A stretch of 64,000 bases of DNA from Chloroflexaceae bacterium (GTDB lineage Bacteria > Chloroflexota > Chloroflexia > Chloroflexales > Chloroflexaceae): contig JANWYD010000003.1 in the NCBI GenBank assembly GCA_025057155.1, positions 62,001-126,000 of the forward strand, given 5' to 3'. This document shows, in pieces, positions 1 through 13,763 of the stretch. Each line of letters begins with the position of its first letter. Positions within the stretch are counted from its first letter, which is position 1. A program made the position numbers and the translations under genes. A model generated the notes under the pieces. It searched no databases, was not told the origin of the DNA, and saw nothing but the letters and a program-made list of their open reading frames with translations.

Positions 1-717
1 TGATCGCGGTGACCACTGCCGGCCACACGTTCGGAAGACCGTGGCGCCAGACTGCTTCACGCGAGCTGTATCCCTTGGCCTGCGCGGTAACCATGAAGGG
101 CTGGCCGAGCACGTCCAGCGTTGCGGCGCGCACCAGCCGCGAGAGCACGGCCACGTTCGGCAGGGCCAGGGTGATCGCCGGCAGGAGCATGCCGGCCAGG
201 GTGGGGCTGCCCAGGGCAGGCAGCCAGCGCAGGGTGGCGGCGAAGACCAGCATTAGAATCAGGGCCACCCAGAAGCCGGGGGCAGCGGCGCCAAGCACAG
301 CCAGCGCCTGAAGCAGAGCGTCGAGCACGCTGCCACGCCGGATGGCGGCGATCAGCCCGAGTGGCAGCGCCACCGCCAGGCTCAGGGCCAGGGTCAGCCC
401 CGCCAGCATCAACGTGGCCGGGAAGCGCTCGCTGTAGATCGCCCACACCGGGCGCCCGCTGCGGTAACATGCCCCGAAGTCGCCCCGCAACGCCCCGGAC
501 AGCCAGTGCAGGTAGCGCGCTGGCAGCGGATCATCAAGTCGCAACTCGGCCCGTTTGGCGGCCACTAGTTCCGGGGTTGGCATGGTCACCCCTTCGGCGA
601 TGAGCAGCAGGCGCGCTGGCTCGCCCGGGGCCAGGGCCATCAACCCGAAGGCCAGCAGGCTGACCAGCCAGAGCGCCAGGAGGCCGCCGCTAATGCGGGC
701 CAGGAGTTGCGCCAGCA
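1..717 (-). CDS. Dpp/Nik-type ABC transporter permease, partial
   Basis: Reading the minus strand from the ATG at 717 gives 239 codons with no stop before the window edge, so the C-terminal part is missing (family length is about 310-340). The protein starts with a membrane segment (ISGGLLALWLVSLLAFGLMA), then a periplasmic stretch typical of DppB/NikB permeases, then several hydrophobic segments, and reaches the cytoplasmic coupling loop (AQAKGYSSREAVWRHGLPNV), the EAA-type motif that docks on the ATPase. It would carry a small substrate across the inner membrane. Its start codon directly abuts the TAA of the upstream substrate-binding protein, so the two are cotranscribed. The substrate (peptide, nickel or a metal chelate) cannot be read from the sequence. 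Confidence 0.85.
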
Positions 718-2289
718 TTACCGTGTCACCTTCAGATCGCGAGTGACGAGGTAAAGATCGTCCGGGTGGGGCGTATAGCCGCTCACCACTTTGCCGTTGA
801 ACGCAGTGATCAGCGGTGGGACTACCAGGTAAATATTGGGCGTATCCTTCGCGACGATCTCCTGCATCTGGCGCGCCAGCTTCTGGCGCTCGGCGGGATC
901 GCTGGCGGCCTGGAGTTCCTTGAAGAGCGCCTCCAGCGCATCGTTGCGGTAGCCGCCGTAGTTATAGGAGGCCCCTTCAACCAGCGTGACGCCCGGCATA
1001 TACTGGGGATCGCTTGCCACGCGCACCGAGAACATACTGGCCTGGAACTCGCCACCCTCGATCTGCGAGGTGATGTCCTGCACCTCCTCGACCTTGACTG
1101 CGAAGCCAATCGCGCCGAGCTGAGCCTGGATGGCGATGGCGATCGGCGTCAGTTCCGGTCGTCCAGGGTAGCTATAGAGCGTGAACTCTAACCGCTGGCC
1201 GTCCTTTACGCGCACCCCATCGGCGCCCGCGACCCAGCCGGCCTCGTCGAGCAGCCGCTTCGCTTTCTCAACATCGGTCGCCTGGGCGGGTACAATCTCG
1301 ATGCCCACCGAGGGCGGGTACATATTCGCGGCCACGCTGCCCTGGCCGTTGAGGGTCGCAGCCAGCAGCGCCTCGCGGTCAATCGCCCACGCGGCTGCCT
1401 CGCGCACCTTCACATCATTGAAAGGCGCGCGCGTATGGTTGAGGATCATATAGTGCAGGCGCGTGCCGGGCACGCTGGTCTGGGAGATGTCGGCGGGCAG
1501 GCTGGCCGCGATATCCGGGGGCACATTGGTGAGCATATCCAGGTCGCCACTCTGAAGGGCCAGGGCGCGCGCGTTACCGTCGGTGATCTTGCGCACGATC
1601 AGCCGCGCTAGCGGCGGCGGGCCGCCCCAGTAGTCGGCGAAAGGCTCCAGTACGAACTCCTGGTCCTTTTCCAGGCTCACCGGACGGTACATGCCAGTGA
1701 GGATCGAGATCCCGTCCTGGGCGGGCCGGTGGATGACGAAGTTCCAGTTTGCCAGGCTGTAGGGCAGGTTGCCCGCCGGCGCCGGCGTGCGCAGCGTGAG
1801 CGTGCGTTCATCAATGACGGTGATCGCAGTGTCGGCCGGTACGAAGTTCTTGGCGCCGGGCAATGCCGTCAGACTGTCCTGGAGCGAGGCGGCAACGGCC
1901 TCAGCAGTCATCGGGCTGCCGTCGTGGAAGCGCACGTTCTGGCGCAGCGTCACCTGCCAGGTGTTCGGGTCAAGCTCGGTGATCGTCTCGGCGAGCCAGG
2001 GCTCGAGCTGTTGCTCCGGGGTCAGGCGGGTCAGCGTCTCGCCGGCGCCGTAGGTGATCATGGTGAAGCCGGTCGAGCCCTGGGTAACGTCCAGGGTGGC
2101 GGGGATGCTCAGACCGGTGCCGATACGCAACTCGCCGCGGCTCGCAGCCGTTGGCGCGGTCGGCGCCGTCGTCGCAGCGGGTAACTGGGCGCCGGGGGTC
2201 GCGACCGGCGTCGTCGTCGGCGCCGCGCCACAGGCGACGAGAACCATCAGAGCGAGCAGGGTGGTCAGGTAGTGAACGAGTGATCGCAT
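718..2289 (-). CDS. ABC transporter substrate-binding lipoprotein (SBP_bac_5 family)
   Basis: A 523-residue extracytoplasmic solute-binding protein of the peptide/nickel family. It has a lipoprotein signal ending in LVACG, an Ala/Thr/Pro-rich linker, and family features such as LTRLTPEQQLEPWLAETI, VRFHDGSPMTAEAV and VREAAAWAIDRE. I chose the ATG at 2289, which has GGAG seven bases upstream; an ATG at 2301 adds four residues but has no ribosome site. It is first in an operon with the permease at 1-717. A palindromic operator lies about 40 bp upstream and is shared with heme and iron genes further along, so a metal chelate or siderophore is as plausible a ligand as a peptide. That ligand is inferred, not shown. 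Confidence 0.85.
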   Translation of the reverse strand: MRSLVHYLTTLLALMVLVACGAAPTTTPVATPGAQLPAATTAPTAPTAASRGELRIGTGLSIPATLDVTQGSTGFTMITYGAGETLTRLTPEQQLEPWLAETITELDPNTWQVTLRQNVRFHDGSPMTAEAVAASLQDSLTALPGAKNFVPADTAITVIDERTLTLRTPAPAGNLPYSLANWNFVIHRPAQDGISILTGMYRPVSLEKDQEFVLEPFADYWGGPPPLARLIVRKITDGNARALALQSGDLDMLTNVPPDIAASLPADISQTSVPGTRLHYMILNHTRAPFNDVKVREAAAWAIDREALLAATLNGQGSVAANMYPPSVGIEIVPAQATDVEKAKRLLDEAGWVAGADGVRVKDGQRLEFTLYSYPGRPELTPIAIAIQAQLGAIGFAVKVEEVQDITSQIEGGEFQASMFSVRVASDPQYMPGVTLVEGASYNYGGYRNDALEALFKELQAASDPAERQKLARQMQEIVAKDTPNIYLVVPPLITAFNGKVVSGYTPHPDDLYLVTRDLKVTR

Positions 2290-2326
2290 AGGCTTCTCCA
2301 TGACAAAGATGGCGGCAACTCAAGAG

Positions 2327-2526: not shown

Positions 2527-3561
2527 TTACAACGTAGCGCCGGCCACGGCGCTTGCTAGCTCGCGCGCAAGTTCAAAGGAGCGCCGGGCCACGCTCTCCG
2601 TCAGCAGGCCAAGCCCGCAGGTCGCCGTGATTATGGTGTGCTCCTTCAGCGCGATACCAGGCGGGCCGCTGCGGCTGGCGACGATCCAGCGCACCAGAAG
2701 GTCGGCGAGAGAGACACTGGTCAGATCGCTGAACGTGGGCACGATGCCAAAGGCCAGAACGCCGCCACTGGCAAGAAAGCTCCGCACGGCCGGCTCGGTG
2801 CAGAAAGCCTCGCTGCGCTGGTAGGCGTCGAAGGAGACGACGTCGGCCCCGGTCGCGCACAGCAGCGCCAGCGGCGGCGTCCGGTCAGGCAGGGTCGCGC
2901 AGCAGTGAACGCCAACCAGCGCCCCCGCGGCCCGCAGCGCCCGGCTCAGCCCCTGCACGATTGCCAGCATCTGCCCGTCCCCCGGCTCGGGCAGGAAGGC
3001 CAGGCAGGGTTCGTCGAGCATCAGCAGCACCGGCGTGCGCCAGCGGGCGAGGCGGGTGATCTGCCAGCGCGCCAGACTCTCGACATACGCGCTCACCACG
3101 GCCAGCCCCTCCGGATCGTACAGCAATGGCTGCTCGTCTACGAAGATCTGGGCGGCGAGGGTCAGCGGGCCGATGATCTGCCCCTTCAGCGCGACCGCGC
3201 GAGGGAAGGCATTCGCCGCCAGGGCCGCCTCGAGGGCGAAGAAGCCGGCAGCTACCGCCGGGGTCAGTTCGCCGCGGGCATCGGCGAGCCGGTTCAGCAG
3301 CGTCGCCCGGTTGCGCGCCTCGAGCTGGTAGCCATAACGCCCCTCGCGGGTCCGCAGCAGGTCGGCAACCGGGACAAGCGCCTGCGCGACCATCAGTTCG
3401 CCTGGGGCGCGCTGCGGGAGCTGTGGCCAGAACGGGATCTCCGGGCAGAATTCGGCCACCAGTTGTACTGCGGCTGCCGGATCGGCGTGCGGCAGGCTGC
3501 CGATGCCGGTGATTGCCCCGCCGCCCAGGGTGGCGCAGGTCAGGGCCGTCGTGATGTGCAT
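2527..3561 (-). CDS. UROD/MetE-like methyltransferase-fold protein
   Basis: A 344-residue protein starting at the ATG at 3561 (GAGGAAAGC just upstream). The N-terminus has GIGSLPH, typical of the uroporphyrinogen decarboxylase / cobalamin-independent methionine synthase C-terminal barrel family. Later come VGVHCCATLP and a C-terminal TATCGLG, which resemble the His/Cys zinc ligands of corrinoid methyltransferase barrels (MtaA, MetE type). A TIM-barrel enzyme handling a methyl group or tetrapyrrole is likely, but the substrate is unknown. It is the last gene of a cobalamin-riboswitch unit, 133 bp after the CbiX-like gene, which fits a corrinoid-related role. Confidence 0.7.
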   Translation of the reverse strand: MHITTALTCATLGGGAITGIGSLPHADPAAAVQLVAEFCPEIPFWPQLPQRAPGELMVAQALVPVADLLRTREGRYGYQLEARNRATLLNRLADARGELTPAVAAGFFALEAALAANAFPRAVALKGQIIGPLTLAAQIFVDEQPLLYDPEGLAVVSAYVESLARWQITRLARWRTPVLLMLDEPCLAFLPEPGDGQMLAIVQGLSRALRAAGALVGVHCCATLPDRTPPLALLCATGADVVSFDAYQRSEAFCTEPAVRSFLASGGVLAFGIVPTFSDLTSVSLADLLVRWIVASRSGPPGIALKEHTIITATCGLGLLTESVARRSFELARELASAVAGATL

Positions 3562-3694: not shown

Positions 3695-4471
3695 TCATGA
3701 GGGCGCATCTTCGCCGTTGCTGGAGGAGGCCGCGCCTCCTGGAGTGATGCGATGTTCCTCGACTGGCCGGCCTGCCACCAGGTGCTCGGCCACAATGCGC
3801 CTGATTGCGTCCGGGGTCAGGTGACCGTACCAGACCCCGGCAGGGTAGACCACCAGCACCGGCCCACAGCCACAGGGGTAGAGACAACCGGTGGCGGTCA
3901 CGAGCGTGCGCTCAGCGTTGCCGCGCAGACCATGTTCGTCCAGGCTCGCCCGCAACTGGCGCCAGCATGCGCTTGCGTCGAGCGCCGTGCACCGGGGTCC
4001 CCGGCAGGTCAGCAGGTGGAACTGGTGCGCTGGCAGGATCTGCCAGCTCTCAGGGTCGTGCTCCCAACCCTCCGGAGGCAGGCTGCGCACGTCCGTCCCT
4101 GTCTCGGCGGCCTGCGCAGCAGCTAGCAAAGCCGTGGCGAGCGCCGGTTGCTCAATCAGGCCCGCACCCATCACGATCGCCAGGTTGCTAGCCGGGTTGG
4201 CCGCCTGCCAGCGTCGCGCCACCCTGGCCATCCAGGTCTGGAGTCTGGGTTCCCGGGGAATGCTGACCGGAATGACCAGCGTGCGGCTGGCCCCGGCGAC
4301 TGCGCAGGCGTCCAGCGCCTGGGGCAGCGAAGGCTCGCCCTGGTCAATCAGCGCCGTCAGCACGAGCGCGTAACGCCCGCTGGCATACACCATGGCAGCC
4401 ATCTGCTCGAGTTGACGGCGTGGCGCAGGCCCATGGTTCCCGCGCCCGAGAAGGATGACGACATCGTGCAT
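3695..4471 (-). CDS. CbiX-like chelatase domain fused to a [2Fe-2S] ferredoxin-like domain
   Basis: 258 residues, ATG at 4471 with AGGAG upstream. Residues 1-115 resemble CbiX/SirB chelatases that insert cobalt, nickel or iron into sirohydrochlorin (VILLGRGNHG at 5-14 corresponds to the first metal-binding His). The second CbiX histidine, expected near residues 70-80, is not evident (PVSIPREPRLQTWM), so chelatase activity is doubtful. Residues 150-240 look like a thioredoxin-fold [2Fe-2S] ferredoxin, with Cys156, Cys161, Cys196 and Cys200. CbiX fused to such a domain is known in several bacteria. It follows the NifD-like remnant by 15 bp in the riboswitch operon. Confidence 0.75.
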   Translation of the reverse strand: MHDVVILLGRGNHGPAPRRQLEQMAAMVYASGRYALVLTALIDQGEPSLPQALDACAVAGASRTLVIPVSIPREPRLQTWMARVARRWQAANPASNLAIVMGAGLIEQPALATALLAAAQAAETGTDVRSLPPEGWEHDPESWQILPAHQFHLLTCRGPRCTALDASACWRQLRASLDEHGLRGNAERTLVTATGCLYPCGCGPVLVVYPAGVWYGHLTPDAIRRIVAEHLVAGRPVEEHRITPGGAASSSNGEDAPS

Positions 4472-4486
4472 CAGGCTGCTCCTATG

Positions 4487-5109
4487 CTAGATATGGCGGT
4501 ACAGGCCGTTCAAGATGTGTTCAAGGATAAAAAGCGCCCCCTCGGCCCCCAGCAGCTTCTTTGGCATAACATCCAGGTAGCTGCCGCCGGGCATGGCGAT
4601 CTCGACCCCGGCCACGCGCGCGCTGCTGCTGCGCGCCCGGTCGTTCAGGGCCCGGCTCCCCACCACGGCGTCCGGCATCCGGTTGGGGTCGATCTCCACG
4701 CCCCAGGCATCGGCGCAGCCAATAGCGGCCAGATACTCGCGCAAGGGCCGCGCATACGCGCTGTTCTCGTCGCTGAGCCGGATTGCCAGCGGTATCATCC
4801 CCAGGTAGCCGTGAAGCCAGCGTGTGAGCGGGTAGGCAAGCGATCCCTCTGCCTGCAACGCGAAGGTCGCGCCCTTTGGCAGGCCCGTCAGCGCATTGAA
4901 GCGGCTGATCGCCTCGTAGCTCAGCTGCCGGGCCGACCGTACTGCAGCGAGAGCCGGGGCGGGATCGGCGTTGACCGCCTGGCAGACCTCCGCCAGCCAG
5001 GACTCCGTCGCGTCGAAGCCAACCGGCGCCCCGTGCTGTGGAAACACCCATTCCATGCCATAGCGCTCGTGCAGCCAGGCCGCCAGCCTGCTGCCATACT
5101 CCTCGTGGA
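4487..5109 (-). pseudogene. NifD/NifK-like reductase, C-terminal remnant
   Basis: About 205 codons in one frame encode the C-terminal part of a nitrogenase-like component (BchY/BchZ/CfbD/NifD superfamily): SRLAAWLHERYGMEWV, then PVGFDATESWLAEV (the P-I/V-G-x-x-A/E-T-D/E signature), and a final region ending GALFILEHILNGLYRHI. The first ATG in frame is at 5056, but recognisable coding begins upstream, right at the stop of the NifH-like gene and in a different frame. The N-terminal half, with the cluster-binding cysteines expected there, is absent. The simplest reading is a deletion that removed the 3' part of the NifH-like gene and the 5' part of this one. It may still be translated but should not form a normal reductase. 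Confidence 0.7.
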
Positions 5110-5553
5110 TCAGACGATGCAGACCACATCGGCGTAGCCGGCGTGCAGGGGCACGGCGAAGCCGCCGCAGACCACGTCGCCCAGCACATCGTAGAGCACC
5201 ACGTCGAATGCCGCCGTATCCAGCCCCAGCCGGTCGAGCAGGGCGAAGGTGCTCAGGATGCCGCGTCCGGCGCAGCCGACGCCCGGCTCCGGCCCCCCGG
5301 CCTCGACGCAGGCCACCTCGCCGTACCCGCGGTGCATTACATCGGGCAGGCGCTGCCGATCAGGCGGGGTGTCGCGCAGGTACTCAAGCACCGTTGTGAT
5401 CCGCCGGCCGTCCAGCAACAGCCGGGTCGAGTCGTGTTTGGGGTCGCAGCCGACCTGCAGGACCGTCCGGCCCCTTGCGGCAAAGGCCGCCGCCAGGTTG
5501 GCCGCGATGGTGGATTTGCCGATGCCGCCCTTGCCGTAAAGCGCAATCCGCAT
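5110..5553 (-). pseudogene. NifH-like ATPase, truncated at residue 147
   Basis: From the ATG at 5553 (AAGGTG upstream; a GTG lies at 5559) this encodes the N-terminal half of a NifH/BchL/CfbC-type iron protein: Walker [10 protein letters not shown] at 7-15, [22 protein letters not shown] with Cys94, and [12 protein letters not shown] with Cys129, the two [4Fe-4S] ligands. It stops at VVCIV, where full-length members continue for a further 120-150 residues. [12 protein letters not shown] and TRLLL resemble the uncharacterised nitrogenase-like group (cluster IV) and CfbC more than BchL. It is the first gene after a cobalamin riboswitch. Truncation and direct abutment on a NifD-like C-terminus suggest a deletion. 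Confidence 0.75.
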
Positions 5554-5619
5554 GATCACCTTACCTTTGGACCACCGGTCTCAATGGGCCTATCGCTAGA
5601 GGGTGAGGAGTGGAACATC

Positions 5620-5648
5620 AAAAAAACCGGCCTCTTGCGAGAACCGGG
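5620..5648 (-). terminator. Rho-independent terminator in riboswitch leader 1
   Basis: On the minus strand CCGG TT CTC GCAA GAG G CCGG forms a hairpin followed by a run of seven T. It lies between the cobalamin aptamer and the NifH-like gene, so it is suited to attenuation. Confidence 0.75.
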
Positions 5649-5661
5649 AAAGAACTCACAC

Positions 5662-5703
5662 TCAGCGCCCTGGATGGGGGAAGGTATCGGGGGCGTGGTC
5701 CAT
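5662..5703 (-). CDS. 13-codon leader mini-ORF (MDHAPDTFPHPGR)
   Basis: An ATG with a very strong ribosome site (AAGGAGGACGAAC) follows the cobalamin aptamer, and the frame closes after 13 codons, about 14 bp before the terminator hairpin. The same ribosome site and ATG follow the second aptamer at 13585, where the frame is five codons. Conservation of the ribosome site but not of the peptide suggests that the act of translation matters, or that the site is simply the aptamer's sequestered Shine-Dalgarno. Expression is unproven. Confidence 0.4.
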   Translation of the reverse strand: MDHAPDTFPHPGR

Positions 5704-5740
5704 GTTCGTCCTCCTTGGCTCGAGAAGGGCGGAACAACAA

Positions 5741-5887
5741 CGTCGCGGCAGGCGTCCTGACTTCCGGCGTTCAACCAACGGCCGGTTACAGTTGCGGCAC
5801 AGCGCTGGACTTGCACCAGCTTCCACCTTTACGCCCTGGCATCCGGGCCAACGGGTCGCCGCGACGGGTATGCGTTGCACAGGTGCG
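5741..5887 (-). promoter_or_regulatory. Cobalamin riboswitch 1
   Basis: The minus strand shows the conserved elements in order: GGTGCAAGTCCAGCGCTG, CCGCAACTGTAACCGG, and the B12 box AGTCAGGACGCCTGCC. Downstream, CCTT-CTCGAGCC-AAGG forms the short hairpin that can kiss with the aptamer loop and also holds part of a strong Shine-Dalgarno. It should lower expression of the NifH-like/CbiX-like/UROD-like genes when cobalamin is plentiful (known behaviour of the class). Confidence 0.95.
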
Positions 5888-13585: not shown

Positions 13586-13623
13586 GTTCGTCCTCCCTGG
13601 CTCGAGAAGGATAGAACAAACAA

Positions 13624-13763
13624 CGTCGCGGCAGGCGTCCTGGCTTCCGGCGGATTAGCGCCGGTTACAGTTGCGGCACAGCGCTGGACTTGCACCAGCT
13701 TCCACCTTTACGCCCTAGCATCCGGGCTGTCGGGTCACCGCGACGGTTAGTTGCACAGGTGCA
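13624..13763 (-). promoter_or_regulatory. Cobalamin riboswitch 2
   Basis: Nearly the same sequence as riboswitch 1: GGTGCAAGTCCAGCGCTG, CCGCAACTGTAACCGG and the B12 box AGCCAGGACGCCTGCC. The downstream hairpin TCCTT-CTCGAGCC-AGGGA keeps its loop while its stem differs from copy 1 with pairing preserved, evidence that the hairpin is under selection. It controls the TIM-barrel gene and perhaps the genes beyond it. Confidence 0.95.

Follow-up and report, generated by a model that had tools for sequence, protein, structure and literature searches.

Probable remnant of a nitrogenase-like reductase operon in a Chloroflexaceae genome and its intact relatives beside a MesB-type core methionine synthase-like gene

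The stretch of DNA analyzed here, called the window throughout (64,000 nucleotides of contig JANWYD010000003.1 of a Chloroflexaceae bacterium), carries what is probably a pseudogene remnant, left when one deletion of about 2.5-2.6 kb destroyed a nitrogenase-like reductase. Taken as a whole, this is the explanation that best fits the sequences, and we put its probability at about 80%. The remnant by itself would be ordinary gene loss; it points to a rare operon. In its intact form, genes for a nitrogenase-like reductase and a MesB-type core methionine synthase-like protein stand together under predicted B12 control, an arrangement that looks new. The window's own genome (G000) is a 5.13 Mb draft in 189 contigs, with a listed completeness of 100% and contamination of 0.8%. 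The features under discussion are as follows.

5730..5878, minus strand: cobalamin riboswitch (copy B) at the head of the operon that holds the remnant (Rfam RF00174)
5620..5647, minus strand: hairpin followed by seven U, a possible terminator of the riboswitch, from folding
5110..5559, minus strand: N-terminal 147 residues of a NifH-like protein, up to the putative deletion junction (ATG 5553, stop TGA 5112-5110)
4487..5113, minus strand: C-terminal half of a NifK-like subunit (residues 223-430 of 431; first in-frame ATG 5056)
3695..4471, minus strand: CbiX-like domain fused to a thioredoxin-like [2Fe-2S] ferredoxin domain (PF01903)
2527..3561, minus strand: MesB-type protein, resembling a core methionine synthase and carrying H-C-D-C as zinc ligands, assigned from its residues and from orthologs behind nflK
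718..2301, minus strand: NikA/oligopeptide-type ABC substrate-binding protein (PF00496; best NCBIfam model Opp5A/NikA, 273 of 600 bits)
1..718, minus strand: N-terminal part of an ABC permease (PF00528), the rest lying beyond the window (L022 13790-14719)

The first piece of the remnant is a frame of 149 residues, 147 of them counted from the ATG, that covers profile positions 1-147 of 271 of Pfam Fer4_NifH (E 8e-61) and keeps the P-loop and both cluster cysteines. Translation and Pfam thus bear out the preliminary description, which had seen here the N-terminal 147 residues of a NifH-like protein with both cluster cysteines. The second frame, from 5113 to 4490 on the minus strand, differs in frame from the NifH piece, overlaps its TGA, and matches positions 201-398 of 399 of Pfam Oxidored_nitro (E 2e-14). 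This two-piece match to nitrogenase-like families is far beyond chance. The same description had let the NifH stop coincide with the start of a NifD-like C-terminal half in another frame; the overlap and the change of frame stand, and the piece itself is NifK, with 74-77% identity to the intact K of two relatives (G001 and G030). A NifD origin was ruled out, the piece aligning with the C-terminal half of K of these relatives. The NifH piece is 89-92% identical to their H domains. Measured as a three-component reductase, the window copy is incomplete, having half of H, no D, and half of K.

A search of related genomes, proposed earlier as a check for an intact ancestor, found the complete operon in two Chloroflexales MAGs, Chloroflexales bacterium W4_Combined_metabat2_035 (G001, contig JAAXUL010000476.1) and Chloroflexaceae bacterium PL24a_bin.39 (G030, contig JANQID010000140.1). 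The ancestor had been pictured as an nflH-nflD pair, which it is not: in both MAGs, the first gene is a NifH-NifD fusion of 764 amino acids (G001, from a GTG) or 805 amino acids (G030, from an ATG chosen by homology), and the second encodes a NifK-like protein of 431 amino acids, its start overlapped by the end of the fusion gene. In G001, the fusion holds a NifH domain (residues 3-266) and a NifD-type domain (344-744) in one open frame, with PF00142 matched over 1-265 of 271 and PF00148 over 1-398 of 399; the K protein matches PF00148 over 3-398 of 399. The MesB-type core methionine synthase-like gene comes third in the intact order. Judged by these homologies, the relatives encode NifH, NifD, and NifK components together, which is the makeup of a predicted nitrogenase-like three-component reductase.

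Aligned to the intact operons, both window pieces fall into place with a single gap of 2485 nt (against G001) or 2614 nt (against G030), and at the junction H codon 147 meets K codon 223. A loss of about 1 kb or more in one internal deletion had been anticipated; a single gap is indeed what is seen, but it is larger, about 2.5-2.6 kb, and includes the whole NifD domain. Such a deletion would have taken out the entire NifD together with half each of NifH and NifK, and would have fused the NifH-NifD gene out of frame to the NifK-like gene. The immediate stop at the junction follows from the different frames of the two genes. The window organism keeps the riboswitch and the methionine synthase-like gene but would have lost the reductase. 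The lost D domain was not found elsewhere in the window genome, where every hit was read as one of the expected nif and bch genes, and the K piece had no match among plasmid records. Three further full NifH-family genes in this genome were read as nifH, bchL, and bchX. A PF00148 search of the genome gave six other hits, read as NifDK, BchNB, and BchYZ, and no NifE/NifN pair was seen among them.

The junction could instead be an artifact of the draft assembly, through collapse or through chimerism of strains, in an organism that has the intact operon. The fragmentation of the assembly and a similarity of about 20 nt between the two sides of the junction speak for this, but that shared stretch is short and imperfect, the junction sits on a contig of 321 kb, and no stray fusion or D fragment turned up on any other contig of the genome at E 0.001; we consider an artifact improbable. 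Alternatively, the short form could still function as two genes maintained by selection, one conceivable product being a small NifH-like ATPase fragment. Pairwise dN/dS of the window pieces against the relatives is 0.08-0.23, changes being mainly synonymous, and neither piece has a stop apart from the junction. Low dN/dS can, however, be inherited from the intact lineage, the short form is missing NifD entirely and NifH beyond its first half, and no other genome had it, whether in the family (41 searched) or in a sample of 400 from the phylum, which makes a working pair very improbable indeed. The absence of relatives sharing the short form among the 41 family genomes also leaves standing the reading as a broken operon, which such relatives had been expected to overturn. 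Replacement changes unique to the window amount to 6/28 in H, against 7/35 for the other two branches combined (p 1.0), and to 23/56 in K, against 9/37 (Fisher p 0.12, nonsignificant). Changes are mainly synonymous, no extra stop is present, and the excess in K is nonsignificant; this pattern fits a recent loss but stops short of showing decay, so the deletion should be young.

Close relatives of the reductase are few. At E 0.001, the K piece matched four of 41 family genomes, namely its own, two close ones (75 and 77%), and one weakly. At 1e-20, K matched 4/400 phylum genomes: its own, G030, G162 (separate H, D, and K genes, 32% identity), and G293, whose nfl genes are more distant. A pattern scan across the contigs of 84,980 species, which misses divergent members and may omit the window's own genome, confirmed four loci among 37 pattern matches, one of them in a Nitrospinae MAG. 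In a tree of 17 rows, the four D sequences grouped together (100/100), separate from NifD and the subunits of the Bch enzymes, while the four K sequences did not form a single clade; with no Mar, Isr, or Cfb sequence among its rows and long branches joined, the tree was used for the D clade only. A fused nifH/nifE is mentioned in the available text of a methanogen paper (PMC4153887), so NifH fusions have precedent there.

The cluster ligands bear on the kind of enzyme. Aligned to NifD and NifK, the Chloroflexales copies keep three P-cluster-type cysteines in D and one of three in K (the start of the G030 D domain lay outside the main cysteine alignment, and its first cysteine was seen in a separate one). 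The same 3+1 pattern occurs in the BchY/BchZ of the window genome. An equivalent of NifD Cys275 is absent in all four D sequences aligned, and the His442 region of D aligns poorly. The distant Nitrospinae K keeps 3/3 cysteines, which shows that the wider group does not share the 3+1 pattern throughout. We infer from the 3+1 cysteines and the missing cofactor cysteine that the Chloroflexales enzyme would be a [4Fe-4S] reductase, expected to hold a single cluster as in DPOR/COR. A Mo, V, or Fe nitrogenase was rejected on the lack of a Cys275 equivalent in 4/4 D sequences and on the single P-cluster cysteine of Chloroflexales K. A separate NifD-like protein on contig C17 of the window genome (L072, L078) keeps the Cys275 equivalent and apparently has Ala where His442 would be.

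Among solved structures, the best match of both D and K by sequence is MarDK of the methylthio-alkane reductase entry 9fmg/9d9u (D, E 3e-27; K, E 2e-34 by profile and 3e-15 by single sequence). That neither a chlorophyllide nor a protochlorophyllide reductase came first counts against the kind of enzyme inferred here. The methylthio-alkane reductase has six P-cluster cysteines plus MarD Cys270 and His429, according to the portion of PMC12552129 available. On these ligands, a methylthio-alkane reductase proper was rejected: Chloroflexales K has 1/3 cysteines, and the MarD Cys270 position is not Cys in a D-MarD alignment that stops short of the MarD His429 loop. The H domain scored best against CfbC (NF033200), at 302.2 bits and below the curated cut-off of 402, and the fusion fell below the NCBIfam cut-offs of BchX, BchL, BchN, BchB, and BchZ among the best 25 of 35 families, which held no BchY model. 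Predicted structures reached a mean pLDDT of 45.5 for the MesB-like protein (3 sequences) and 53.1 for K (4 sequences), and for this reason no fold search was run with them.

The partner gene lies directly behind nflK in both intact relatives and behind the CbiX-ferredoxin gene in the window. The preliminary description had overlooked it, although it gives the better hint at function. Its close orthologs (76-78%) occur in exactly the 3/41 family genomes that have close nfl genes, and 25 more distant MesB-type matches are spread across the family (41 genomes). Counting the zinc ligands alone, since the paralogs seem shifted by one position at the serine column, H, C, D, and C are all kept in 3/3 nfl-linked copies versus 0/18 paralogs examined of the 25 found. 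The three nfl-linked copies also keep the S and D homocysteine residues. Neither Pfam nor NCBIfam puts a name to the window protein, and a search of solved structures with it gave no match up to E 1. The protein resembles a core methionine synthase, an assignment made from residues and size (about 345 residues). Price et al. 2021, in the text available (PMC7857596), describe MesB-like proteins of Chloroflexales that are without the zinc-site ligands. Such zinc-site-lacking proteins are widespread in the family (L076 6598-7644; paralogs L033-L049), and by eye the one in G030 adjoins genes resembling methylthioribose-phosphate isomerase, SAH hydrolase, and SAM synthetase.

Other methionine synthases were sought in seven genomes. 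MetH scored over its cut-off in six of them, the exception being G025, listed as 84% complete, and MetE in none. PF03599 (CoFeSP, AcsC/AcsD) matched in 2/7, both times inside MetH-matching stretches (20.3 bits in G030, below the cut-off of 24.8, and 26.5 bits in G024, over it), and not in the window genome or G001.

A CbiX-like neighbor and control by cobalamin had both been proposed from the letters alone, and both are supported by family models: PF01903 at 24.6 bits against a cut-off of 22, and RF00174 at 51.3 bits against a gathering cut-off of 31.5. For the CbiX-ferredoxin protein, PF01257 and the NCBIfam ferredoxin models all stayed below cut-off. An ortholog was not found in G030 at E 1e-10, and that of G001 lies on another contig (L073, G001:C203), away from nfl, where by eye it adjoins a gene resembling a cobalamin-type ABC substrate-binding protein.

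Between the riboswitch and the remnant, a 61-nt stretch with the hairpin folds at -18.1 kcal/mol (z -2.4; 7/200 shuffles as good), and a similar hairpin with a T run is present in G030 (L013 4169-4188); a pattern scan of the window leader found no promoter or terminator. The riboswitch of G030 ends 139 nt before the fusion gene. In G001, none was found ahead of the fusion gene on its 6.4-kb contig, and an AdoCbl-II riboswitch follows the MesB-type gene. Transcription presumably stops when cobalamin is bound to the window riboswitch, which would turn the operon on under cobalamin scarcity. A further cobalamin riboswitch at 13613-13757 of the window (minus strand, 56.5 bits) lies, by eye, upstream of two methylmalonyl-CoA mutase-like genes and one MeaB-like gene.

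The window riboswitch has a distal copy in the same genome (C3:60570-60719; L022 12571-12720), the two forming a direct repeat with about 7 kb between them. Two close sister species share the flanking genes, at 96% (G025) and 94% (G027) identity across the query, but at this site they are without everything between C3:60731 and window position 5690, that is, the remnant, the CbiX-ferredoxin gene, the MesB-type gene, and the NikA-type transporter. Each has one riboswitch there, its similarity extending further with the distal copy on the left and with the 5730-5878 copy on the right; on the right, other DNA (about 1 kb in G025, about 11 kb in G027) precedes the resumption of the shared flank. 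The remaining two genomes of the genus are likewise without a close K and a close MesB-type gene. Recombination between the riboswitch copies could have added or removed the cassette, in either direction. In G030, three direct riboswitch copies surround the operon (L013 3931, 10606, 12457). Direct-repeat cobalamin riboswitches around B12-related operons may more generally act as recombination points.

What the intact operon does can be proposed with less assurance. With a cobalamin riboswitch governing both a strong reductase and a core methionine synthase-like gene, the operon looks like a standby for the B12-dependent MetH at low B12. Our tentative reading is that a [4Fe-4S]-only, ATP-driven enzyme of the chlorophyllide-reductase kind and a core methionine synthase may form a B12-sparing route to methionine used if MetH fails. 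The CbiX-ferredoxin and NikA-type genes of the window cassette allow a more elaborate version, in which the H-D/K reductase might make or re-reduce a substitute metallo-tetrapyrrole methyl carrier for the MesB-type synthase; this B12-independent backup, riboswitch-induced, would make the reductase a new functional class among nitrogenase-like enzymes, its cassette moved and lost between riboswitch copies. This version is distinctly doubtful; the CbiX-ferredoxin gene was not found in G030 and is on another contig in G001.

Two readings would take the enzyme elsewhere. It could be a tetrapyrrole or corrinoid reductase serving the making, repair, or reductive activation of cobamides, with no methionine route. 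The H domain's best score against CfbC points this way, as do the BchY/BchZ-like cysteines of Chloroflexales D/K, the CbiX-ferredoxin and NikA-like genes near the remnant, and FecCD-type ABC transporter genes seen by eye upstream in G001, with similar genes in the window genome (PF01032, PF00005). The missed NCBIfam cut-offs for CfbC, BchL, BchX, BchB, BchN, and BchZ and the lack of a detected CbiX-ferredoxin gene in G030 tell against it, as does the MesB-type gene that comes after nflK in both intact operons; we think this reading rather unlikely. The other makes it methylthio-alkane reductase-like, releasing methanethiol for methionine, as the MarDK match might suggest. This is a poor candidate: K has a cysteine at only 1/3 P-cluster positions (in the NifK alignment, the third position also against MarK), D is without an equivalent of the MarD Cys270 reported in the available part of PMC12552129, and no MarB-like gene was noticed by eye beside the intact genes.

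If the tentative methionine link is real, nitrogenase-like enzymes would gain a further role, and the methyl source of a core methionine synthase without the Wood-Ljungdahl pathway would become testable. All three MesB-type copies with an intact zinc site share an operon with nfl or its remnant, in contrast to the zinc-site-lacking MesB-like proteins of Chloroflexales in the available text of PMC7857596. Our literature search, outside of which most subscription journals lay, found no paper that links cobalamin riboswitches to a nitrogenase-like enzyme, nor any that links riboswitches to MesB.

Among known systems, cobalamin riboswitches control metE, and B12-responsive control of a MetE-superfamily protein would be shared by the operon described here; the difference is that a nitrogenase-like reductase comes ahead of the core synthase. 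Chlorophyllide a reductase (BchXYZ) and DPOR (BchLNB) are alike in lacking the cofactor cysteine and in the 3+1 cysteines, as in BchY/BchZ of the window genome, whereas the intact enzyme has a separate D clade in the tree and HMM scores far below cut-off. Cfb gives the best family score of the H domain, yet only 302 of the required 402 bits, and the intact operon has a K subunit, which Cfb is without in the available text of PMC11423573. MarHDK, a Group IV nitrogenase-like enzyme, shares the H, D, and K components, the best solved-structure match, and, on the tentative reading, a link to methionine supply. Unlike it, the Chloroflexales enzyme is without two of the K P-cluster cysteines and the cluster-anchoring cysteine of D, and the intact operon has H and D fused, a cobalamin riboswitch, and a MesB-type partner. 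Finally, the MesB core methionine synthase (PMC7857596, in the text available) is alike in the H-C-D-C zinc ligands, the S and D homocysteine residues, and the length of about 345 residues, whereas the window-type protein sits with nfl and is accompanied by no convincing Wood-Ljungdahl corrinoid protein.
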